DNA from: Nitrosopumilaceae archaeon
GTDB taxonomy: Archaea; Thermoproteota; Nitrososphaeria; Nitrososphaerales; Nitrosopumilaceae
Length of the DNA stretch: 41,379 bases
NCBI GenBank assembly: GCA_030038445.1
Contig: JASHOW010000106.1
Span: 1-41,379 of the forward strand
Direction of reading: 5' to 3'
Positions within the stretch are counted from its first letter, which is position 1; each line of letters opens with the position of its first letter. The notes beneath the pieces are model-generated. The model was not told where the DNA came from, did no database searches, and saw nothing but the letters and a program-made list of their open reading frames with translations. The position numbers and the translations under genes were made by a program. Shown here piece after piece: positions 10,064 through 31,980 of the stretch.

Positions 10064-10440
10064 AAGGTAAAACCCTCTTTTAGAATACTGTTTAGGTTTT
10101 CCTTTATCTCTTCTTCAGATGACAGTGAATTAAGATCTCTGATTAATACCTCTGTTGCAAGACACTGATTCTTTGAGAACTGATAGTAACAATCTAGCTT
10201 TTCCTGGTAGGTTGTTGCGTTATAATAGATAGTCCAAAAGTTTTCTGTTGAATGTTGCGCATAGAGTAAAAATTTTCGAATAGCTATCTCAATTTTGGGT
10301 GATGGATTGTCTCTCATTAATCCAATTAGAATCTGTTCCAGTTTGCTGTCCAGATTAGACTCGTAAATCAGCTGGTAAATGTCTGTGGCTCGTGTCACAG
10401 TTGCTTTATGTGTCTGTATCATAAAAGCTTTCATCAACAA
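10060..10440 (-). CDS. hypothetical protein
   Basis: 126-aa ORF, convergent and 4-nt overlapping with the preceding CDS. Confidence 0.6.
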   Translation of the reverse strand: MLMKAFMIQTHKATVTRATDIYQLIYESNLDSKLEQILIGLMRDNPSPKIEIAIRKFLLYAQHSTENFWTIYYNATTYQEKLDCYYQFSKNQCLATEVLIRDLNSLSSEEEIKENLNSILKEGFTF

Positions 10441-10523
10441 TTTTCAAAAAAATCGCCATTTGTATGTAACAACTTTAGATATCTCGAAAAAACTAAAATT
10501 TCAACTCGGAATTATTCATAATG

Positions 10524-10532
10524 CTTAAATAA
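10524..10532 (+). promoter_or_regulatory. TATA-like element preceding candidate ncRNA A
   Basis: cttaaataa, about 25 nt before the first hairpin of the structured segment. Confidence 0.35.
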
Positions 10533-10835: not shown

Positions 10836-12110
10836 ATGCACTCACAACAACCATCAAAGAAATGGATGTGGTACATTCTTCCAGGCCAAGTTACCAACCA
10901 AGGGCTTAGCATTGTAATTCCTTTGTATGTGCTCTTTCTTGGTGGAGGTATAGAAGAAGTTGCAATAATCTCTGCTCTTCAGAATGCCGCAGTTGCTATA
11001 GGTTCCATCTTTTGGGGTAAGATAATTGATAGGTTTCATACCAGACGATTTATACTTCTAGTATCATTTTTTGTTGTTCTTCTCTGTAGCCTTGAGATAT
11101 ATTTTACAACATCGATTAGCGTGCTTTATGGAATTTCACTCATACTCGGATTTTTTATTGTTGGTAGAAATCCTGTAACCCAACTTCTTGTAATGGAATC
11201 AGTACAAAAGAATCTTTGGAGCTGGCTTTTTGCAAGAACATCAGTAATTAGTACTCTTGGAATGTTTATTGCAATGGCCATAGGAGCTGTAGATAGCCTA
11301 TATTTTGATCTAAGGCCTTATTTCTTGATTTGCGCGGCTTCAAGCGGAATAACTATGGTGCTTAGTATGCTGGTTAAAGAAGGAGGATTTCACATAGAAC
11401 GGAGCAGTGTGGCGTATTCTATACATGGTTTACGTTATACAATCAGCCATTATCACTTTGTATTTCCCAAAATTCTTGAGCTTCATGATTTCAAACACAT
11501 AATTACAATATTTAAGGGGAAGATAAGTAACGAGATTGGGATTTTTTCCATTGCAATCTTTTGCTTCAATTTTGGAAGCAACATGTATTCTACAGCTTGG
11601 AGCCCCTTTCTCATAAGTAGGCATTTTTCAAACGCTGGCGTATTCCTAAACTATATGATTCAGATGGCGGCTATGCTGCTTATCTTCTTTTTAGTTCCAA
11701 AAATAATTTCTAGAATAGGAGAAGAGAGATCTACCTTGATAGCGTTTGCGCCCAGAATCTTGGCAGTCATAATTCCTGCAGTTACAGTTTCTATGATGAT
11801 TGGAGGTCTGGGGGCAGTATTGGCAATTATTTCGTCCTGCCTCCTAGTTATTGGGTTTTCTATCTTTAGTACATCAACCTCAGTTATCTTTTTCAAGAGT
11901 ATACCTCAGGGTTTTGAAGGGAAATACCTTGGAGTCAACAGCGCTGTAACTGGATTTGGCGTTTTTGCAGGTTCTCTTGTAACTGGTGAATTTACAAGGC
12001 TATTTGGATACTCTATGTTATTCTTTTGTTCCGTGGTAGTGCTAGCTATTTCCTTGCTTCTATTCAAGGCATACTTTCACTATAGGATATCGAATACCAA
12101 GACGAGCTAA
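10836..12110 (+). CDS. MFS transporter
   Basis: 12-TM-like protein; IIDRFHTRRFILLVSFF loop 2-3 motif; ATG at 10836 likely rather than the TTG at 10824. Confidence 0.75.
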   Translation: MHSQQPSKKWMWYILPGQVTNQGLSIVIPLYVLFLGGGIEEVAIISALQNAAVAIGSIFWGKIIDRFHTRRFILLVSFFVVLLCSLEIYFTTSISVLYGISLILGFFIVGRNPVTQLLVMESVQKNLWSWLFARTSVISTLGMFIAMAIGAVDSLYFDLRPYFLICAASSGITMVLSMLVKEGGFHIERSSVAYSIHGLRYTISHYHFVFPKILELHDFKHIITIFKGKISNEIGIFSIAIFCFNFGSNMYSTAWSPFLISRHFSNAGVFLNYMIQMAAMLLIFFLVPKIISRIGEERSTLIAFAPRILAVIIPAVTVSMMIGGLGAVLAIISSCLLVIGFSIFSTSTSVIFFKSIPQGFEGKYLGVNSAVTGFGVFAGSLVTGEFTRLFGYSMLFFCSVVVLAISLLLFKAYFHYRISNTKTS

Positions 12111-12748
12111 ACATAACGAGCAGGAGATGAGGATTGATCGCCTGCAGGCATTGAGGGCAGTTTGTCGTTGACTGCTGACTCTGCAACTGCCGCAGCCTCC
12201 TGAATGATCTTCTCGGATTCCTCGTCTGCTACTCCGGAATCGACTCCAAATTCGCCGTTGTGGAATGTATCGGTCATTAGTCCGCCAAGTAAATCAGTCA
12301 TTCCAGCTAGCTCGCGATCTGCTTCTGGCATAAACTGTACCATCGAGGATCGTAGGTTTTTCATCAAGCCAATTGTTGGCATGATTGTGACTACTGTATC
12401 GCCTAGATCGCTAAAGGTACTAAGTCTAAGCTCAATTTGTTCAAGTGCGATTCTAGCATTTCCAAGAAGCTTGGTAACTTTTCTGACCTCAGCTAGCTCT
12501 TTTGACAAAACTTTGCTGGCAGTAAGATCATGCTGTTGAGTGGCAACTACAATTCTTTTAAATAATTTTTCGTCTTTTTGCTTTAATTTTGTAATCATTC
12601 CATCAAGTTTTCCAATTTGGACCTGAAGTCTTTTTACTGCTTGTTCCATTCTTGGCTTCAGGGGACCTTTTGGTTTTATTGTATCATTAATTCTTTCACC
12701 AATGCCTGGTGCCTGTGGTCTTTGCCAATTCTTAGCAAATGTTGTCAT
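12107..12748 (-). CDS. cdvB: ESCRT-III / CdvB family cell-division protein
   Basis: 213-aa helical protein; KPRMEQAVKRLQVQIGKLDGMITKLKQKDEKLFKRIV and C-terminal acidic/helical region; lacks an obvious C-terminal winged helix, so may be a CdvB paralog. Confidence 0.82.
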   Translation of the reverse strand: MTTFAKNWQRPQAPGIGERINDTIKPKGPLKPRMEQAVKRLQVQIGKLDGMITKLKQKDEKLFKRIVVATQQHDLTASKVLSKELAEVRKVTKLLGNARIALEQIELRLSTFSDLGDTVVTIMPTIGLMKNLRSSMVQFMPEADRELAGMTDLLGGLMTDTFHNGEFGVDSGVADEESEKIIQEAAAVAESAVNDKLPSMPAGDQSSSPARYV

Positions 12749-14480: not shown

Positions 14481-14591
14481 CCCGTATTGATGTTAGTAAA
14501 ACAATCGGGCGTGGCCCCGATCGCAGGCATACAGAGATTACCTCTTCAATCCACACAGTGGATTCATTTAACAGCCTGCGAAGCCACGCTC
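14481..14591. ncRNA. candidate structured ncRNA B
   Basis: CCCGtATTG/CAATCGGG; GGGCGTGGC 14507-14515 / GCCACGCTC 14583-14591; CGCAGGC 14522-14528 / GCCTGCG 14574-14580; inner AGAG/CTCT and AATCCAC-aca-GTGGATT. One G.U pair favours +, but a minus-strand TATA and terminator-like hairpin leave strand open. Confidence 0.42.
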
Positions 14592-14735
14592 ATCTGGCAG
14601 TAGATTTTACATCTTTCTGCATCAGTCATAGTAGACATTCAAAGTATTTATAATTTTATATATATTTTATATATCTAAAGCCATTATTATGAAATTCCTA
14701 GAGAAATTGACTCAATTAGATACCCGATATTTACA

Positions 14736-14920
14736 AGATTAATCCCAGATCATCTATTCTTTGAAGATACAAAATAAACAGGCAACTAGTGTATAGCAAT
14801 TCTTGCTGATGAATTTTTTATTGGAATAATCTAAGAATTCAAGGTGATGGATATAGAAGGATGTTATCTATGCTTATAGCAATAACAATTGTGCTGGACA
14901 TGAATCTTAATTCTAAATAG
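14736..14920 (+). pseudogene. possible decayed acetyltransferase-like gene remnant
   Basis: RLIPDHLFFEDTK*TGN*CIAILADEFFIGII* in one frame, then RIQGDGYRRMLSMLIAITIVLDMNLNSK* in another (14834-14920); RxxGxGYRR resembles GNAT motif A. Confidence 0.25.
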
Positions 14921-14952
14921 ATTATAATATTTGTAACAAGATTTCAAAAGAA

Positions 14953-15693
14953 ATGAAACTTGCTGGAAGAGTAGCAATTGTTACTGGTGGTAGTAGGGGA
15001 ATAGGAAAAACTACGGCTTCTATCTTTGCAAAGGAAGGCGCAAATGTTGTGATCACGGCAAAAGACGACGCCAGACTTCAATCAACAGCCAAAGAATTAG
15101 GAGTGGTTGGTTTTGCTGGAGACATAAGAAAAGAGTTGGATGTCAAGATGATTGTAGAAAAAACATTTGAAAAATTCGGTAAAATCGATATACTGGTAAA
15201 TAATGCAGGAATGTTTCCAGAGGTAAGGCCATTGCACGAAACCTCTGAAGAGAAATGGAATGAGGTAATTGACATAAACTTGACAGGACAGTTTCGTTTT
15301 ACAAAGTCAGTTATTCCATACATGATGAAAAGTGGGGGATGTATTGTAAATATTGCATCAAATGCTGGACTTAGGTCATTTGAAAATTTCGAAGCAGATT
15401 CGTATTCAGCCACAAAGGCTGCCCTGATACACCTAACAAAGACATGGGCAGTAGAATATGCAAAGTACAAGATTCGCATAAATTGCGTATGTCCAGGAAT
15501 AGTTAGCACGGACATGACTGAGCCATATCTCAGAACAGATGTTGATAGAGCCATGGCTGTGGCTGAACATCCAATAGGAAGAATTGGCAGTACGGAAGAT
15601 ATCGCAAAAGCCATACTATATTTTGTATCAGACGATTCATCGTGGGTTACAGGTGCGATCTTAGCAATAGATGGCGGAGCGGTAACAAAGTAA
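14953..15693 (+). CDS. short-chain dehydrogenase/reductase
   Basis: VTGGSRGIGKTTA, NNAG, SYSATKAAL and C-terminal AIDGG motifs. Confidence 0.92.
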   Translation: MKLAGRVAIVTGGSRGIGKTTASIFAKEGANVVITAKDDARLQSTAKELGVVGFAGDIRKELDVKMIVEKTFEKFGKIDILVNNAGMFPEVRPLHETSEEKWNEVIDINLTGQFRFTKSVIPYMMKSGGCIVNIASNAGLRSFENFEADSYSATKAALIHLTKTWAVEYAKYKIRINCVCPGIVSTDMTEPYLRTDVDRAMAVAEHPIGRIGSTEDIAKAILYFVSDDSSWVTGAILAIDGGAVTK

Positions 15694-15736
15694 TCAGCCA
15701 TATCAAATTAATAGAACCACCACCCACACCTAAAAC

Positions 15737-15961
15737 ATGGATGCCAAGAAGAAAGGTAAGCTCAAGATAATCATCATGCTATCCATAATTTGGTTTGCAG
15801 CAGCCTTGCCAGTACCATTTCTCTGGTCAAATCCCGATCCTCAACATCCAGATCAGTACAAGGTATACATGGAAATTGCAGGATTAGTTTCTATTCCTTT
15901 CATTGCTATGGGAGTTGTCTGGACCTTAAAGCCAGAACTTGCAACAAGGGGCTCTAGTTAA
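15737..15961 (+). CDS. small two-TM membrane protein
   Basis: 74 aa; IIIMLSIIWFAAALPVPFLW and IAGLVSIPFIAMGVVWTL. Confidence 0.65.
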   Translation: MDAKKKGKLKIIIMLSIIWFAAALPVPFLWSNPDPQHPDQYKVYMEIAGLVSIPFIAMGVVWTLKPELATRGSS

Positions 15962-16694
15962 GAAATTCTACTGCCCCGTTCCCTTCTGGTGTAATCTTAA
16001 TCCAGCGTGTTCTGCCTATTCTTTCGATCTCAACAAACCTCCATTCGTTCAAGAGCGGTTGGATTATATTTTTATCAAGACTTGCAAATCTGGCTTGCTG
16101 AAAATTTTCTTCTTTTGCATTGATCACAATTAGTTTTTTCTCTTCTGCAAGTTTTGCCATTTCTTTTTTTGTTATTTTACCACCATGTTGTTTTATTATT
16201 TTCAGTGCTTGAACCAAGACTGGCTTGGGAGTATGAATTTCATATGCAGGAAGTTTCACTACTGCCCTTAACCCCGAGGAAAGTTGTGCTCCCTTTACAC
16301 TAGCATAGCGTTCTGGCTCTGCATAGTATGGAATAATCTTTGTTTTCCCTTGAAACATCATACAGGCCATCATGCAAGCAATAGCTTGAATTTTTGAGCC
16401 AGAGGAGCAATTTACAAATATATCGTTATCCTCCTCTTTTTCTACAATTTCTCTAACTGATTTTAGTATCTTGAAGAGATCAAATCTGTCAGAGTATATT
16501 ACGTGAACGTCAATCTTTTCTTTTCTTAGTTGTGTCCTAATCTTTTCCATATAGCCTTGTGCCCTATCCTTTGTTGGTTCACCGTGCATCAAAAGCCAGA
16601 CCCTGTCTGCCTTCATCTGTTTTACCGGAATTGCAATTCTGTCAATCTCAAAGCCTACTGGAGCAATATGCACGCGGAGATTTGCAATACTCAT
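15954..16694 (-). CDS. CARF-like / HFX_2341-type (DUF6293-like) protein with C-terminal winged helix
   Basis: N-terminal Rossmann-like VWLLMHG...DIFVNCSSGSKIQAIACMMACMM; C-terminal HTH-like KIIKQHGGKITKKEMAKLAEEK...RWIKITPEG. Confidence 0.65.
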   Translation of the reverse strand: MSIANLRVHIAPVGFEIDRIAIPVKQMKADRVWLLMHGEPTKDRAQGYMEKIRTQLRKEKIDVHVIYSDRFDLFKILKSVREIVEKEEDNDIFVNCSSGSKIQAIACMMACMMFQGKTKIIPYYAEPERYASVKGAQLSSGLRAVVKLPAYEIHTPKPVLVQALKIIKQHGGKITKKEMAKLAEEKKLIVINAKEENFQQARFASLDKNIIQPLLNEWRFVEIERIGRTRWIKITPEGNGAVEFLN

Positions 16695-16833
16695 GATATT
16701 ATGTATAGTTTGGATACTAAAGTGATGATATATAATAATTACGCATTTGTACCTAAACCATGCAACAAAAATACAAGATAGAACAAAACGAGGTATTGTT
16801 TTATCCCAAGGTAAAGTCAGTCTTTGAGGATTA

Positions 16834-17376
16834 CTAGATTTTCATCCAGTCTGTCTGCTCCAGATAATCAATTATCCTGATCATCTCATCAAGCTTTGTT
16901 ACAACGGCATTAACTGCGCGAAATTCTTCATACATCATTTTTTCTTCTTCTGCAGACAAGACTTGTTTTTCTGCAATCTCAAAAAATCTATCTTCTTTTG
17001 TCATATGATCATTTAGATAAACTGCGTAAGCCTTAAGAAATCTTGCAACTGGCTCTCTTTCATCTATTCCTTCTTTCCACTTTTGCAGGTGTTTAGAAAT
17101 ATTGTTTGCTATACGGCGACTGAATTCATGTTCTATCATAAATGCCCTTATCTCTTCTTTTAGAAAACCATAACTTCCAACACAGGCAAAGTATGCATCT
17201 TCTTCTCTTGAATAATGAATCGCATCTAGAAACTCAGACATGATAAGGATCATTTTTTCAAGATCTGAAAATGAAATATCTTGTCCTGAATTAAGTTTTG
17301 TATAACATTGTACAACTATCTTTTCAAAACGGCGCATCTGTTTGTGGTCATTTCGCAGTATTTCTGTGGCACTCAT
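16834..17376 (-). CDS. hemerythrin-domain protein
   Basis: EILRNDHKQMRRFE, FLDAIHYSREEDAYF, HEFSRR and HMTKEDRFFEIAE metal-ligand pattern. Confidence 0.82.
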   Translation of the reverse strand: MSATEILRNDHKQMRRFEKIVVQCYTKLNSGQDISFSDLEKMILIMSEFLDAIHYSREEDAYFACVGSYGFLKEEIRAFMIEHEFSRRIANNISKHLQKWKEGIDEREPVARFLKAYAVYLNDHMTKEDRFFEIAEKQVLSAEEEKMMYEEFRAVNAVVTKLDEMIRIIDYLEQTDWMKI

Positions 17377-17393
17377 GACTTTCTCAACTAATA

Positions 17394-18230
17394 TTAGGTA
17401 TACACGGTAAACAAGATTACCTTTTTTGGGTCATATTGGACAATTGCAAAATGGGGAACTTCGGAATCTTTTACATAGTGACCCTCGGGCCCACCAATGC
17501 CTAATCTAATAAGATAGTTACTGCTAGGATCAATTTCAATTTCCCTGCTCTCAAGAATATATCCCGCAATCTTTTCCTTTGCTGGTTTTAGAGTTGGGTA
17601 GAGCCTGTGAATGTTACCATCCTGTATTATTGCTTCTTCTTGGTGCTGATGACCGCACAAGATTATATGATTACCCATATGTTTTCTGGCTTCATCAAAA
17701 GCAGAAGATGCCTTGTAATGATATCCAGCATAAGTAAAGAACTCAAAGTCCTCCTCTGTTAGTCTTTGCCAACACCTTTTATATAGCCAAGCCTCGTCCC
17801 CAGCAGTTTCTGGTGTTATTTTTTGAGGATCAAGCGGGCCTCCGTGGACGCAAAAAAGGCCATGTTTTTTATCGATGAATTCCTGACTGCCAAAGGTTCC
17901 ATCAGAATTTTCTTTAAAAAATGACATATCCTCTGAATTTAGTTTTGCGTGTGCGTTCATGCTCTCAACCGAGCCCGCACCTATTAGCTTGTTATTTAGA
18001 AATGCTTCGTCGTGGTTTCCCATGACTGAGAAGAGCGAATAGTTCTTTTCAAGCGACTTTAATCTAGAGAGCACCTCTCTTGGATGAGTCCCTCTTTCAA
18101 GAATATCTCCCAGATTTATTATTCTAGATAAGGTGGTATACTTTTTTTTAAATTCAGTACTAGATGTTATACCCAGTATGACATCCAAGGCATTAATGTC
18201 TGCATGTATGTCAGAAAATACCAAGTCCAA
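17394..18230 (-). CDS. metallophosphoesterase (calcineurin-like)
   Basis: FSDIHADINAL, NLGDILERG, VMGNHDEAF and ILCGHQHQEE motifs. Confidence 0.88.
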   Translation of the reverse strand: MDLVFSDIHADINALDVILGITSSTEFKKKYTTLSRIINLGDILERGTHPREVLSRLKSLEKNYSLFSVMGNHDEAFLNNKLIGAGSVESMNAHAKLNSEDMSFFKENSDGTFGSQEFIDKKHGLFCVHGGPLDPQKITPETAGDEAWLYKRCWQRLTEEDFEFFTYAGYHYKASSAFDEARKHMGNHIILCGHQHQEEAIIQDGNIHRLYPTLKPAKEKIAGYILESREIEIDPSSNYLIRLGIGGPEGHYVKDSEVPHFAIVQYDPKKVILFTVYT

Positions 18231-18459
18231 TGATCTGCTAAATGTATAATCCTAATTTGTAATTTCTTATGTCAGTTTTAATACATGCCCATTATGTATA
18301 TCATAAAAAAGCATCAACTAGAATAGATATTCTCAAATCTTAGAATAAGAAGGTAAAAGGTTGGTTCAAGATAAATAAAAGATGCAAGGAGAATACACTA
18401 CCAAGCATTTGGAGTCACTTACATCCTCACATCTACCCATTGAGGATGTTGGGACATTT

Positions 18460-19386
18460 TTATGATTCAAACTCTATTTTCTGGACAGAATTCCTTGGAA
18501 CATGTAAATCTCGAAATGTATCAGGATTGATTATCTTTGCCAAGATCTCAAGTCCTGTGATGGTTCTTGGTCCTGGCTTGCTAAAATACTCATTTGCATT
18601 TACTGCATAAACTTGGCCTTGCTTTACTGCCCTCAATGATCTCCAGTCTTCCTTGTCTATGATTTTTTCATATTCTTGCAGTGTTCGCTTTACATCAAAG
18701 CCGCATGGCATCAGTATGATTATGTCAGGATCAAACTTTGCCACCTCGTCAAGTCCCATTCTTCTGGACTGATCCCTTGTTGCACTTATTCCGTTTATTC
18801 CTCCGGCAAGTTCTACCATTTGAGGAACCCAGTGACCTGCGGTAAACAAAGGATCAAGCCACTCTATGCAAAGAACTTTTGGTCTTGCTCCTTTTGGGAC
18901 ATGCTGAATAGACTTGATTTTAGACCTTAGTTTATGAACAAAGGTTTGTGCCTGACTAGTCTTTCCAACCTTTTTTCCAACCTCGATTACATTATCAAGT
19001 ATGTCATCTAGGTTTCTTGGATCCAAGATTAGAACGTCAGGCTTGCCTCCAAGTATTGTTACTGCCCTATTAATCTCCTTAGTAAAGGGAGAGCAGACCT
19101 CGCATATACCTTGAGCCACTATGAGATTTGGGTTTATGTCTTTGAGCACTTGTTCATCAAGTACATAGATGTCCTTTCCTGATCTCATCAGTTCCACTAC
19201 TTTTCTGTCAATTTCTTGGCTTGTCATTTTTTCAGGATCAAAGACAGAATGGATCACTCGTGGTTTGGTCTTTGCCTCAGATGGATAATTACACTCGTGT
19301 GTTACTGCAAGTACTTGATCTCCCATTCCAAGATCATATAATATCTCAGTAGCACTAGGAAGAAAGGAAACTATGCGATTTTCCAT
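18460..19386 (-). CDS. BtuF-like periplasmic-binding-fold protein (cobalamin/ABC transporter substrate-binding type)
   Basis: RIVSFLPSATEILYDLGMGDQVLAVTHECNYP; PDVLILDP...; no clear signal peptide. Confidence 0.8.
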   Translation of the reverse strand: MENRIVSFLPSATEILYDLGMGDQVLAVTHECNYPSEAKTKPRVIHSVFDPEKMTSQEIDRKVVELMRSGKDIYVLDEQVLKDINPNLIVAQGICEVCSPFTKEINRAVTILGGKPDVLILDPRNLDDILDNVIEVGKKVGKTSQAQTFVHKLRSKIKSIQHVPKGARPKVLCIEWLDPLFTAGHWVPQMVELAGGINGISATRDQSRRMGLDEVAKFDPDIIILMPCGFDVKRTLQEYEKIIDKEDWRSLRAVKQGQVYAVNANEYFSKPGPRTITGLEILAKIINPDTFRDLHVPRNSVQKIEFES

Positions 19387-19471
19387 ACCATATTATTTTG
19401 TAAACGGCTTCTTTAAACATCTTGATTGACCATCCAAAATTCCTCAAAACTTAAGAATAGCCCATGGCTCG

Positions 19472-20356
19472 ATGAGTCTGTTGGCTAGATTTACAGTCAT
19501 TGGTGGATTGTCATCTGAACAGCTAGCAAGAAAGATAGCGACAAGATTAAGATCAAAGTATGTAGGATGTGAGCTAAGAGTTTTTCCAGATGGCGAAAGC
19601 AAGATTACACTCAAGACAAAGCCAACCGGCAAGATAATTGTAGTGCATTCTGTCTATCCCCCTGTAGACTCTAATCTGGTCCGTGCTCTGGCCTTGGTAT
19701 CACAGGCAAGAAAATACTCATCCCAGGTCTATGCAGTAATACCATACATGGGCTATGCAAGGCAAGACAGAGAATTTCTACCAAGAGAAGTTGTAACCAT
19801 GTCTCTTATTGCAAAGATGCTCAAGGCTGTAGGTGCAACAAAGATCATAGTAGTTGACATCCATAGCATGATGGCATTGAAACATTTTCAGATATCAACT
19901 AAAAATGTCAGTGCAATAGAAGAGATTGTAAAATATTTTAAAAAATTGTGTCTTAAGGACCCGCTTGTTGTATCCCCAGATATGGGAGGGGTTGGGAGGG
20001 CACAAAACTTTGCACATTTGATGAAAGTAGAATACATTGCGTTAGAAAAACATAGGGACAGAAAGACTGGAGAAGTTATGATAAAATCAAGTAATCATCA
20101 AAAAGTAAGAAACAGGGACATAATTCTTGTTGACGACATGATAAGCACTGGCGGCAGCATAGTCAAGGCAGCAGAGCATTTGAGAAAGCAAAAGTGTAGG
20201 AGGATATATGCTGCCTGTACTCATGCTCTCCTGATAGGAGATGCAGAAAAAAGGATTAGAAGAGCTGGTGTTGCAAGGATAATCAGCACAAATACAATAC
20301 CTGGCAAGACAAGTATTGTTGATGTTTCCGCCGTAATAGCAAGGGCAATCATCTGA
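19472..20356 (+). CDS. prs: ribose-phosphate pyrophosphokinase
   Basis: VIPYMGYARQDREF, VVDIHS and DIILVDDMISTGGSIVKAAEHL PRPP-binding loop. Confidence 0.93.
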   Translation: MSLLARFTVIGGLSSEQLARKIATRLRSKYVGCELRVFPDGESKITLKTKPTGKIIVVHSVYPPVDSNLVRALALVSQARKYSSQVYAVIPYMGYARQDREFLPREVVTMSLIAKMLKAVGATKIIVVDIHSMMALKHFQISTKNVSAIEEIVKYFKKLCLKDPLVVSPDMGGVGRAQNFAHLMKVEYIALEKHRDRKTGEVMIKSSNHQKVRNRDIILVDDMISTGGSIVKAAEHLRKQKCRRIYAACTHALLIGDAEKRIRRAGVARIISTNTIPGKTSIVDVSAVIARAII

Positions 20357-21289
20357 ATGGTACAAAGTTTTTTTGTCTTATCCGGAGAACATCAACAACT
20401 TGCAAGGGATGAATTGGTCTGCATATCAAAAAGCTATGATGCCAATACTAGACACTTGGTAGAATCAAGGCTTGTAATTATCAAGTCTAAAATTACATGG
20501 AAGAAGATTGCCAAGAGGGCTACATTTGTCAGAGTAGCTGGAAATCTTGTGGGAACCTTTGATGACATTTCAAAGATAGAATTGCCTGTATCAAGGCCTG
20601 ATACTTTTGCCTGCAGGGTAGTAAACCTCTCCTCCAAAAAAATCAATACATCGCTTATGGAAAGAGATGTAGGTGCAATTCTCAAGAAAAGGATAGATTC
20701 TAAGGTATCACTCTCAAATCCTGCACTTACCATTTATCTTGTCATTACTGATAACAATAGATACATAGGTTATGCAGATGCGCTAGAATACCAAAGGCCT
20801 AAAAAGGCAATCAAATATCCAACTGAACTGGACTGGAAACTTGGCAGATGTATGGTAAACCTGTCACAGCTAAAAGAGGGCAAGACCATATGCGACCCAT
20901 TCTGTGGAACCGGCACGATACTGCTTGAGGCCGAATCCATGGGGATACGCTCCATTGGGATTGATTTTGATTCTAAAATGTGTGAGATTACAAGTAAAAA
21001 TCTTGCAGCTAACGGATACAAGTCTAGAGTTGTCAATTCAACATATCACCATATCTTGAAGATTAAGGACAAGACAGACGCAATAGTTACTGATGTTCCG
21101 TATGGTATTGCTTCAAGATCGTCCATGCCACCAAAGAAAATAATCGAGGATCTTCTTTCAGTTGTGCCAAAGAAGATGAGGACAGTACTAGTGTACAAGA
21201 AGGGAATGTATATCAAGGAATTTGACAAGGCAAAGAAATACGAAATCTTTAGGCATAAGAGTCTCACAAGAGTGATTGTTGTAAAATGA
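20357..21289 (+). CDS. THUMP-type tRNA (guanine-10-N2)-methyltransferase
   Basis: CDPFCGTGTILLEAESMG and DAIVTDVPYG catalytic motif; N-terminal THUMP-like region. Confidence 0.83.
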   Translation: MVQSFFVLSGEHQQLARDELVCISKSYDANTRHLVESRLVIIKSKITWKKIAKRATFVRVAGNLVGTFDDISKIELPVSRPDTFACRVVNLSSKKINTSLMERDVGAILKKRIDSKVSLSNPALTIYLVITDNNRYIGYADALEYQRPKKAIKYPTELDWKLGRCMVNLSQLKEGKTICDPFCGTGTILLEAESMGIRSIGIDFDSKMCEITSKNLAANGYKSRVVNSTYHHILKIKDKTDAIVTDVPYGIASRSSMPPKKIIEDLLSVVPKKMRTVLVYKKGMYIKEFDKAKKYEIFRHKSLTRVIVVK

Positions 21290-22185
21290 AGCTAGTATTC
21301 TTGGGAACATCGGCCGCCCAGCCAACGGCAGAACGAGGAATGACATGTATCTGTCTGGTTCTGGACAAGGAGGTATTGATGTTTGACGCAGGTGAGGGTG
21401 CCCAAATTGCATTCCAAAAAGCAAAGATTGGATGGAACAAAAAGATGAAGATCTTTGTTACCCATTTACACGGAGACCATTGCGTGGGAATTCTTGGCTT
21501 GCTACAGACAATGTCGCTTCAAAACAGGACTGAGCCTATCGATATTTTTGGACCGTCTGGAATCGAGGAGTTTCTTGCCAGCAATCTGAAGATATTAAAT
21601 TTTGGGCTTACGTTTCCTGTTAGGATTACGAGAATAAAGGAAGGGTTGATCTTTGACGACCCTCTTTATGCGATTCATGCTTGCAAGGCAGAACACTCTA
21701 TACCGGCATATTCGTACCTCTTTTCTGAAAAGGATAGGCCAGGCAAATTCTATCCCGAGAAGGCAAAGAAATTTGAAATTCCGCAAGGAAAGATGTGGCA
21801 CGAACTTCAGAGTGGAAGTGAGATAAAGATTGGAGACAAGACTGTAAGGCCATCTGACGTGATGGGAGAGAAGAGGAAGGGAAGAAAGATAGGTATTTCA
21901 GGTGACACTAGGCCTACAAAAAACCTTGAAGAATTCTTCAAAGGATGTGATTATATCACTTTTGATTCTACATATTCTGATAAATTGCGCGACAAGGCAA
22001 TAGAAAACTATCATTCTACGGCAAAAGAAGCTGCCGAACTTGCAAAAAAGGCAGGAATAGTAAATCTTATTTTGACGCATTTTTCAGCACGATATGAAAA
22101 TGCAGATGAGCTAATATCAGAGGCAAAAACAGTCCACGATTCTGTGATTGCCGCAAGGGATCTTTTAGAGATAAATGTCAAGTGA
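21286..22185 (+). CDS. rnz: ribonuclease Z
   Basis: MKLVFLGTSAAQPTAERG, THLHGDHCVGILGLL, GDTRPT and LTHFSARY. Confidence 0.93.
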   Translation: MKLVFLGTSAAQPTAERGMTCICLVLDKEVLMFDAGEGAQIAFQKAKIGWNKKMKIFVTHLHGDHCVGILGLLQTMSLQNRTEPIDIFGPSGIEEFLASNLKILNFGLTFPVRITRIKEGLIFDDPLYAIHACKAEHSIPAYSYLFSEKDRPGKFYPEKAKKFEIPQGKMWHELQSGSEIKIGDKTVRPSDVMGEKRKGRKIGISGDTRPTKNLEEFFKGCDYITFDSTYSDKLRDKAIENYHSTAKEAAELAKKAGIVNLILTHFSARYENADELISEAKTVHDSVIAARDLLEINVK

Positions 22186-22906
22186 CATGTTCAAATCAAT
22201 TGTTGATAGGTTGCACCAAGCAGAAAAAATTGTCTTTGTTACTGGAGCCGGAATTTCTCAAGAAAGCGGAATTCCTACCTTTCGAGGAAAAGATGGGTTG
22301 TGGAGAAAATATGATGCAATGAAGCTTGCCACAATAGATGCATTTTATGAAGATCCAAAGCTTGTGTGGGAATGGTATGAGGAAAGAAGAAGAAACGTCT
22401 TGGAAGCAAAACCAAATGCAGGCCATCTTGCAATTGCAGAGCTTGAAAAATTCAAGTCTGTGTATGTATTGACACAAAATGTTGATGGCCTTCACCAGAG
22501 AGCGGGAAGCACAAAGGTCTATGAGCTTCATGGAAGCATCATTACAATCAGGTGTACTAGATGCAATTTCAAAGATAGCATAACATCAAGTTTTTCGCAC
22601 CTTCCACCAGCCTGCAAGTGTGGCAGTATACTAAGGCCTGATGTGGTATGGTTTGGCGAATCTCTTCCACAAGATGTATGGCACACCTCAATGCAGCAAG
22701 CCATCTCTTGTGATGTAATGATAGTGGTTGGTACTTCACTTGCAGTATCCCCTGCAAATCTTTTGCCAGCCTATGCAAAACAAAATGGAGCAATTGTTAT
22801 CGAAATAAATCCAGAAGAGACTTTGACGTCTACAAACATGGACCTCTCAATTCGCTCTTCTGCTGCAAGAGCCATTCCCGAACTTGTAGCGGCATTTCAG
22901 AGATAA
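22175..22906 (+). CDS. NAD-dependent protein deacylase, Sir2 family
   Basis: FVTGAGISQESGIPTFRGKDGLW, TQNVDGLHQRAGS, CxxC...CxC zinc site, VGTSLAVSPA. Confidence 0.95.
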   Translation: MSSDMFKSIVDRLHQAEKIVFVTGAGISQESGIPTFRGKDGLWRKYDAMKLATIDAFYEDPKLVWEWYEERRRNVLEAKPNAGHLAIAELEKFKSVYVLTQNVDGLHQRAGSTKVYELHGSIITIRCTRCNFKDSITSSFSHLPPACKCGSILRPDVVWFGESLPQDVWHTSMQQAISCDVMIVVGTSLAVSPANLLPAYAKQNGAIVIEINPEETLTSTNMDLSIRSSAARAIPELVAAFQR

Positions 22907-23014
22907 GCGCTTAAAATTATTCAAAAAAAGAGATGGTCTTTTTGTTAAATCGCCGTTATAGATCAAAGAATCATTAAAAAAATCTTACTTTATTATGAGA
23001 ATTATGACTAATTG

Positions 23015-23022
23015 TTAAATAT
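23015..23022 (+). promoter_or_regulatory. TATA-like element preceding candidate ncRNA C
   Basis: ttaaatat about 30-40 nt upstream of the first hairpin of ncRNA C. Confidence 0.35.
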
Positions 23023-23053
23023 TATGAAAACGTATAATGATCAATGAGAAAAG

Positions 23054-23164
23054 ACGCAAATTCTGGCGATTGAATTTGCGTGGCTCTGCGAAAAAGAGTA
23101 CATAGTAGAGTGCACAAAGGTGCGCAAGTGGCAAGAGAATGCTTTTGCCTATACAGGGCCACGC
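23054..23164 (+). ncRNA. candidate structured ncRNA C
   Basis: ACGCAAATTC-tggcgatt-GAATTTGCGT perfect 10-bp hairpin; GCGTGGCTCTG 23078-23088 / CAGGGCCACGC 23154-23164 (11 bp, one U.G); inner GTGCAC-aaag-GTGCGC and GGCAAGAG-aatg-CTTTTGCC. Wobbles consistently favour the + strand. Confidence 0.48.
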
Positions 23165-23296
23165 CATTACACATTTTCTAATCTATTATGCGAAAATTTG
23201 GTAATTTTTGAAAGCGCAATTTTTGTAGGTTAATTTGTCCTAATCTATAACAAGTTTGGAAGTGTAGGAGAGTGGTACAGATTTGAAGAAAAATTC

Positions 23297-23698
23297 CTAC
23301 AAATTCTCGGGGGCAAGCCAGTCAGCTATCTTTTCCAAGTTATTTGAGTGTAGGATTACCTTGATTGGCCCCATCGGGGATTCTTCTGCCTCGTCGCATA
23401 CAGCAATTATGTCTACATATGCAGCCTGCTTGTTGAGATAAAACCATGTAGTGTCTCCCTTTGTATTGTATCGCATCTGTCTTCTGTAAACCCTGTTTAC
23501 TTTGCGTTTTCGTATGGTTTCCTGAATCTTTGACAGAGAATGTAGATCCCTTGAGACTGCCTTTATGCTTCCATCACGATATTGGTAATCAGCATTTATG
23601 ATTATATTAGATAAGGCAGTCTTGACCCGTTCTGGATCTTCAGATGGATTTACTGCAGCATATGCTTCTATTTTGCATGAGATACTAGGCATATTCAT
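23297..23698 (-). CDS. UPF0201-like conserved archaeal protein
   Basis: ISCKIEAYAAVNPSEDPERVKTALSNII, small archaeal conserved family pattern; 4-nt overlap with the upstream kinase-like gene. Confidence 0.72.
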   Translation of the reverse strand: MNMPSISCKIEAYAAVNPSEDPERVKTALSNIIINADYQYRDGSIKAVSRDLHSLSKIQETIRKRKVNRVYRRQMRYNTKGDTTWFYLNKQAAYVDIIAVCDEAEESPMGPIKVILHSNNLEKIADWLAPENL

Positions 23699-24249
23699 TT
23701 TATCCAGTTTTTGATAATATGATAGGCCGCATCTACCAACTGTTCTATTGTTAGATTATTGTTGGAGATTGTTTCATCAGCTAGTGCAATTGATTCACTC
23801 ATTCCAACTCCAATTTCCCTCGAGTCCCTTTTTGAAAAATCTTCTCTGTCAGATGGGGCATCAGACCTACCGCGATTGGTTAGAAACTTGAATCTGATAT
23901 CTCCCGATGCGTGAATTGCAAGAACTTTGACCGTGCCAATTTTTTTTAATACATCAATTTCTGCAAGTGATCGTACACCATCTACGAGTATTACGTTGGA
24001 TTTGGAATTTAATATGTCATTTTTGATCAACTCAGCTACTGCACCAGAACCATTCTTTTCTCGAAGCTCAAGCATTAGCTTGCCTAAATTTGTACCAGTA
24101 GGATCTATTTTTCTTCTTGTAGCTTCGGCTCTTACTGCATCACCCATAGTTATCTTGTCAAATCCCTTGGATTTGAGGGCCTCAGCTATTGTAGTCTTGC
24201 CTGCACCCGGCATGCCGGTTAGGCAAACAATAAGCTTTGTCACATTCAC
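23695..24249 (-). CDS. adenylate/dephospho-CoA-kinase-like P-loop protein (UPF0200-like)
   Basis: LIVCLTGMPGAGKTTIAEALKSKGF Walker A; VILVDGVRSLAEIDVLK. Confidence 0.78.
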   Translation of the reverse strand: MNVTKLIVCLTGMPGAGKTTIAEALKSKGFDKITMGDAVRAEATRRKIDPTGTNLGKLMLELREKNGSGAVAELIKNDILNSKSNVILVDGVRSLAEIDVLKKIGTVKVLAIHASGDIRFKFLTNRGRSDAPSDREDFSKRDSREIGVGMSESIALADETISNNNLTIEQLVDAAYHIIKNWIK

Positions 24250-31808: not shown

Positions 31809-31906
31809 ATCTAACTAAATGAAAATTTTCTACAAAAGATGGATTAGCAAAATGGCGTTAGCTTTTGCATTAAAAATAATGACAAAATGTAATGAGATAA
31901 AATGGT

Positions 31907-31980
31907 GGGACCGGCCGGACTTGAACCGGCGACCTCTAGCACCCCAGGCTAGCATCATGACCAAGCTAGACTACGGTCCC
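31907..31980 (-). tRNA. tRNA-Pro (GGG anticodon)
   Basis: GGGACCG...CGGTCCC acceptor stem; CTAGC-CTGGGGT-GCTAG anticodon arm; GCCGG-TTCAAGT-CCGGC T arm; CCA not encoded. Confidence 0.93.

Follow-up and report, generated by a model that had tools for sequence, protein, structure and literature searches.

Loci B and C of the window, which is the whole 41,379-nucleotide stretch of Nitrosopumilaceae DNA analysed here, are almost certainly members of a single RNA family, and their strands and homology can be assigned with the same near-certainty. The RNA is about 130 nt long and is present in almost every close relative. Nearly all members have a predicted leaderless ORF, usually of nine codons, followed by a covarying three-way junction. 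Comparative sequence analysis leans towards a standalone dual-function RNA in which translation of the nonapeptide would open, or protect, the structured domain. Nitrosopumilaceae include globally important ammonia oxidisers.

Three covariance models were used: R1 was built from B, R2 from C, and R3 from 44 diverse members with no C-type row. The features of the two loci are as follows.

14622 to about 14497, minus strand: RNA B, conserved in relatives, with an R1 match (14497-14622) and a conserved promoter and ORF.
14651-14645, minus strand: TATA box of B (ATAAATA), 22 nt before the ATG and kept in the B alignment.
14590-14622, minus strand: leaderless ORF of B, MQKDVKSTAR* (ATG CAG AAA GAT GTA AAA TCT ACT GCC AGA TGA).
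Within the B ORF, minus strand: predicted hairpin GCAG..AGAU-GUAAA-AUCU..CUGC.
14509-14589, minus strand: structured domain of B.
14589-14581/14517-14509, minus strand: P1 of B.
14580-14574/14528-14522, minus strand: P2 of B.
14564-14558/14554-14548, minus strand: P3 of B.
14545-14533, minus strand: P4 of B, AGAGGUAAUCUCU.
About 14498-14503, minus strand: T-run at the 3' end of RNA B.
23015-23021, plus strand: TATA box of C (TTAAATA), 22 nt before the ATG.
23044-23176, plus strand: RNA C (a C-type member; 3' end about 23176), conserved in relatives and matched by R1, R2 and R3.
23044-23073, plus strand: leaderless ORF of C, MRKDANSGD* (ATG AGA AAA GAC GCA AAT TCT GGC GAT TGA).
23078-23164, plus strand: structured domain of C, in which P1 encloses two covarying hairpins.
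23078-23088/23154-23164, plus strand: P1 of C.

Promoter, ORF and sequence conservation around B all lie on the minus strand in a co-oriented alignment of relatives. The order on that strand is TATA box, 22 nt, ATGCAGAAAGATGTAAAATCTACTGC, closing helix, two inner hairpins and T-run, with the relatives aligned in the same direction. On the plus strand, C has TTAAATA, 22 nt and ATGAGAAAAGACGCAAATTCT. B and C have 5' motifs that can be aligned with each other (ATGCRGAAAGATGYAAAWTCT), and a genome typically has one exact or near-exact copy of each. The original prediction took B as a plus-strand RNA, a reading that the alignment of relatives contradicts. It had correctly reported the closing helix GCGTGGC/GCCACGC at both loci and the two hairpins enclosed by it, and both loci fold better than dinucleotide shuffles (z of -4.6 and -4.5); this helix is its own reverse complement, which hid the strand of B and misled the first reading. 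The hairpin assigned to the 5' end of B (14481-14510) is in an unconserved region at and beyond the 3' end of the RNA, so neither the common span of 111 nt, which is a coincidence, nor the overlap of a 5' hairpin with the closing helix is a family feature. Read on its proper strand, B has a 5' hairpin that stops 7 nt before P1; the 5' hairpin of C shares just 2-3 nt with its P1, and the predicted MFE fold satisfies both helices almost fully. Nor are there just two copies, as had been proposed. R3 locates one more member in the genome from which the window comes (contig 27, 941-1073, minus strand), with a TATA box and the eight-codon ORF MPCVSADN*, and the RNA is multicopy across the GTDB family.

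In a BLAST search of 60 relatives, B was recovered from 28 further genomes of the window's genus and C from 31, and other families yielded neither. The genus was identified as Nitrosotalea by exact-pattern matches in named genomes, for example Ca. Nitrosotalea devanaterra (LN890280.1); Nitrosotalea belongs to the Nitrosopumilaceae in GTDB. The proposed kinship of B and C was right, on grounds invisible in that first reading. R1 finds C over its full length at window 23044-23176 (E = 5e-4), R2 finds B-type members of relatives (1.4e-4 in one relative), and R3, despite having no C rows, finds C at E = 1.3e-8. Among 250 genomes of the order that passed a completeness filter of 80%, R3 matched 125, in 17 of 59 genera, with one to four copies per matching genome. 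All matches are in the window's own GTDB family and none of the 250 genomes outside it was matched; the genera g25, g30 and g33 of the same family gave no match. The suggestion that the family is undescribed is upheld by this covariance-model search of relatives, which returned homologs with compensatory changes, and by comparison with Rfam 15, in which B and C have no match even at E≤5 and 12 further member loci have none beyond chance. Literature searches found no paper describing the family, which is not proof that none exists.

B orthologs in other genera are flanked by the same genes, an SDR (PF13561, divergent) and a TFB (PF00382, on the convergent side), which indicates that B is an old locus. 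C in the window is flanked by a SIR2 gene and by a PF01877 gene that converges on it. Two minus-strand genes are convergent with C, one for the PF01877 'RNA binding' protein (23297-23698) and one for an adenylate-kinase-like P-loop NTPase (23695-24249), so that a connection of this neighborhood with RNA or the ribosome is possible. Two members in one genome (L414 and L418; G106:C184:10092-10219 and 10401-10527) are in tandem about 180 nt apart and represent a local duplication whose two ORFs differ, MPMIVTPIN* and MPIVPTVD*. Viral carriage was also considered: a loose pattern retrieved 80 viral contigs, and model R3 detected the RNA in none of them.

Judged by archaeal promoters in general, the spacing between TATA box and AUG puts the predicted start of transcription at the AUG. 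In both B and C the TATA box is exactly 22 nt upstream of the ATG, and transcription should therefore start at the ATG. For the 148 members with a recognizable TATA box, the first ATG (else GTG or TTG) 17-30 nt downstream was taken and the stop was ignored. Read in this way, 142 have an ORF of 8-10 codons, 124 have exactly nine codons, and 112 show a gap of exactly 22 nt between TATA box and ATG. Among 103 non-redundant members, for which the start was chosen with the ORF in view, the stop is at +27 in 88%, at +30 in 8% and at +24 in 3%; it is in frame 0 throughout, and the out-of-frame positions directly flanking it have almost no stops. The ATG-starting members of the non-redundant set fall within the 8-10 codon range in 96 of 97 cases, compared with 11 expected by shuffling. 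Between syntenic B orthologs, synonymous changes make up 47% of the codon differences in frame 0, as opposed to 11% and 18% when the two other frames are read; these pairwise counts are not phylogenetically independent, and the hairpin within the ORF is a further constraint on them.

The ORF rule holds in 26 of 27 members fetched afterwards, which include five previously unused genera (g22, g27, g29, g35 and g36). D, a third Nitrosotalea member, is often cut short at its 5' end by the model, and its ORF (ATG or GTG, nine codons, such as MFVKPQKMA*) begins upstream of the reported match; the ORF is therefore not a product of the model. Matches without an ORF could be under-sampled because the models include ORF columns. 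A weak C-like match (L425, G186:C1:696135-696265) has a TATA box and a four-codon ORF, MLKI*, alone, and is probably a decaying copy. The start-to-stop ORF is thus conserved in a small standalone RNA, as in dual-function sRNAs. From these regularities it is very probable that the in-frame ORF is under selection, and likely, if a little less so, that it is translated in the cell. The designation 'noncoding' in the original prediction, in which the conserved leaderless ORF was missed, is therefore probably wrong.

The domain downstream of the ORF is a three-way junction in which P1, P2 and P4 covary strongly. Standard pairs occupy 94.4% of the P1/P2/P4 cells in the broad alignment, and 15 of 21 pairs have double changes, compared with 7.0 after shuffling; none of 500 shuffles reaches 15, and slid registers give 2-8 pairs with double changes. 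Within Nitrosotalea, double-change cells number 57 in C (19.8 shuffled) and 20 in B (5.4 shuffled). Outside the C type, P4 is a nearly invariant hairpin, GAGG-N-R-A/U-UCUC. The structure is conserved independently of coding, which is the second feature of a dual-function sRNA.

In the predicted pairing, the A and U of the AUG are free, a hairpin forms within codons 2-9, and P1 begins 3-4 nt past the stop, a spacing found in 82 of 100 members. Uniform covariation of the ORF hairpin was rejected, as it is merely modest and the register differs among paralogs. Accessibility of the AUG is no better than in shuffled RNAs (0.75 and 0.76, respectively). P4 was considered as a mimic of the Shine-Dalgarno sequence; the value of -10.7 kcal/mol is weakly better than that of shuffled RNAs (-9.3 kcal/mol), for which reason no such role is claimed, and the best site is in P4 in 55 of 100. 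Nitrosotalea D members such as L097 and L100 have a P4 hairpin that carries GGAGGUGAUC, resembling a full Shine-Dalgarno sequence; across the family as a whole this reading is without support. The 16S 3' end of the window genome was not found in its assembly.

These features suggest a mechanism. Each RNA would be transcribed from its own TATA promoter with its first base at the AUG. A ribosome would load on the leaderless 5' end, read the nine codons and melt the hairpin within the ORF. Ribosome footprint sizes are the basis for expecting it to contact or enter P1. A ribosome at the stop would have melted the ORF hairpin, and, since termination would occur 3-4 nt ahead of P1, its front edge would be expected to press into P1 and so open or guard the three-way-junction domain. 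When no ribosome is present, the 5' hairpin and P1-P4 would fold. The act of translating the nonapeptide would in this way determine how stable or how active the structured domain is, which is proposed to act in trans, and the peptide itself may contribute as well in the case of the B locus. Comparative sequence supports the family, the strand, the promoter geometry, the ORF length and frame, the covariation of P1, P2 and P4, and the lack of a consistent downstream gene; from these we infer transcription, the exact start site, translation, its coupling to folding and action in trans. The coupling mechanism as a whole we favor slightly over its being wrong.

The strongest alternative, though an unlikely one, is that the RNA is the mRNA of a functional nonapeptide (a signal, a regulator or a toxin-like peptide) and that the structure is a stabilizing or processing 3' UTR. 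ORF length and frame are conserved, as such an mRNA would require, and B-locus peptides keep the core M-x-K-D-[IVA]-x-[PS] with synonymous changes. However, the frame comparison shows no amino-acid-level selection and no synonymous excess in C and D, and the peptides of paralogs are unrelated (MFVKPQKMA, MSLVTKSNE and MPCVSADN). The structured part, moreover, covaries, is as conserved as the ORF and is much the longer, at about 100 nt to 30 nt of coding sequence.

Less probable still is a pure noncoding structured RNA in which the ATG and the stop are parts of an RNA motif and are never translated. The variable peptides and the predicted hairpin formed by the ORF are compatible with it. The signals at either end of the ORF behave otherwise: starts alternate among ATG, GTG and TTG, and stops among TAA (56), TGA (35) and TAG (12) in the non-redundant set, always in frame with the 5' ATG. 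Furthermore, the ORF varies by whole codons (24, 27 or 30 nt from start to stop) and the spacing from stop to P1 by single nucleotides, neither of which is predicted by a structural motif.

That the RNA acts in cis, as a leader-peptide attenuator or as a riboswitch for a gene downstream, is very improbable. A short leaderless ORF followed by structure does resemble leader peptides, and leaderless short ORFs act as leaders in mycobacteria (PMC4633059), where, as proposed here, the state of translation could set the folding of the RNA that follows. The present family differs in that it has no consistent co-directional downstream gene. The next gene is on the same strand in 16 of 103 members, at scattered distances of 24-1081 nt, but 86 of the 103 have a convergent neighbor, often within 10 nt of where the RNA ends, which makes cis control unlikely. 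The two-copy plus-strand switch of the original prediction, with alternative pairing of the 5' hairpin and P1, hardly survives: its helices exist in the window sequence and those of C overlap by 2-3 nt, but for B it depends on the wrong strand and an unconserved hairpin, the overlap is not conserved in the family, and many genomes have more than two copies.

The family has its nearest parallels in the dual-function sRNAs SgrS/SgrT, Spot 42 and AzuCR of bacteria and those proposed in Haloferax and Methanosarcina (PMC12482152, PMC11456600), which are likewise small standalone transcripts with a small ORF. In those the ORFs are longer, single, and leadered or variably placed, whereas in the present family the ORF is predicted to be leaderless, has a nearly fixed length of nine codons and abuts a covarying three-way junction, and the RNA occurs in most genomes of a family with several paralogs. 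The ribosome-associated sRNAs of Haloferax volcanii are also archaeal and have ribosome occupancy, but were found experimentally and mostly lack coding potential (PMC12482152), while what defines the present family is the conservation of its ORF and of its fold. Neither the dual-function sRNAs nor the mycobacterial leaders include an RNA that is free-standing, occurs family-wide and carries a leaderless ORF of almost constant nine-codon length. It is conceivable, though we hold it with less than even confidence, that this is a new class of free-standing archaeal RNA, occurring family-wide, in which an obligatory leaderless ORF for a nonapeptide is translated and this translation, largely whatever the peptide, serves as the signal to open or protect the conserved structured domain. 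Such an RNA would in effect be a soluble sensor of translation or of ribosome state. It is in any case unusual, since its almost invariable features include a start codon placed on the predicted first base, a length of nine codons and a stop codon adjacent to a covarying helix, and it makes testable the question of what benefit lies in translating nine codons whose amino acids are often not conserved.

Other RNA classes were rejected. A tmRNA likewise combines RNA structure with a coding stretch of roughly ten codons; unlike it, the present RNA starts at its own AUG, has no tRNA-like acceptor/T-arm domain by ARAGORN and has no Rfam match. ARAGORN found no tmRNA in the window and tRNA-Pro alone. 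An archaeal H/ACA guide RNA was rejected because there is no conserved ANA/ACA box, the nucleotides after P1 varying both in B and among C-type members from other genera; a C/D RNA reading is without support, and no Rfam model for SRP RNA or RNase P RNA matches.

Two further features of the window were noted. A sub-threshold Rfam match to HPnc0260 (31816-31941, plus strand; 56 bits, cut-off 59) overlaps tRNA-Pro(GGG) in antisense and is probably due to chance. A Snf7-like (ESCRT-III/CdvB-type) protein, under the Pfam cut-off, is encoded at 12107-12748 on the minus strand.
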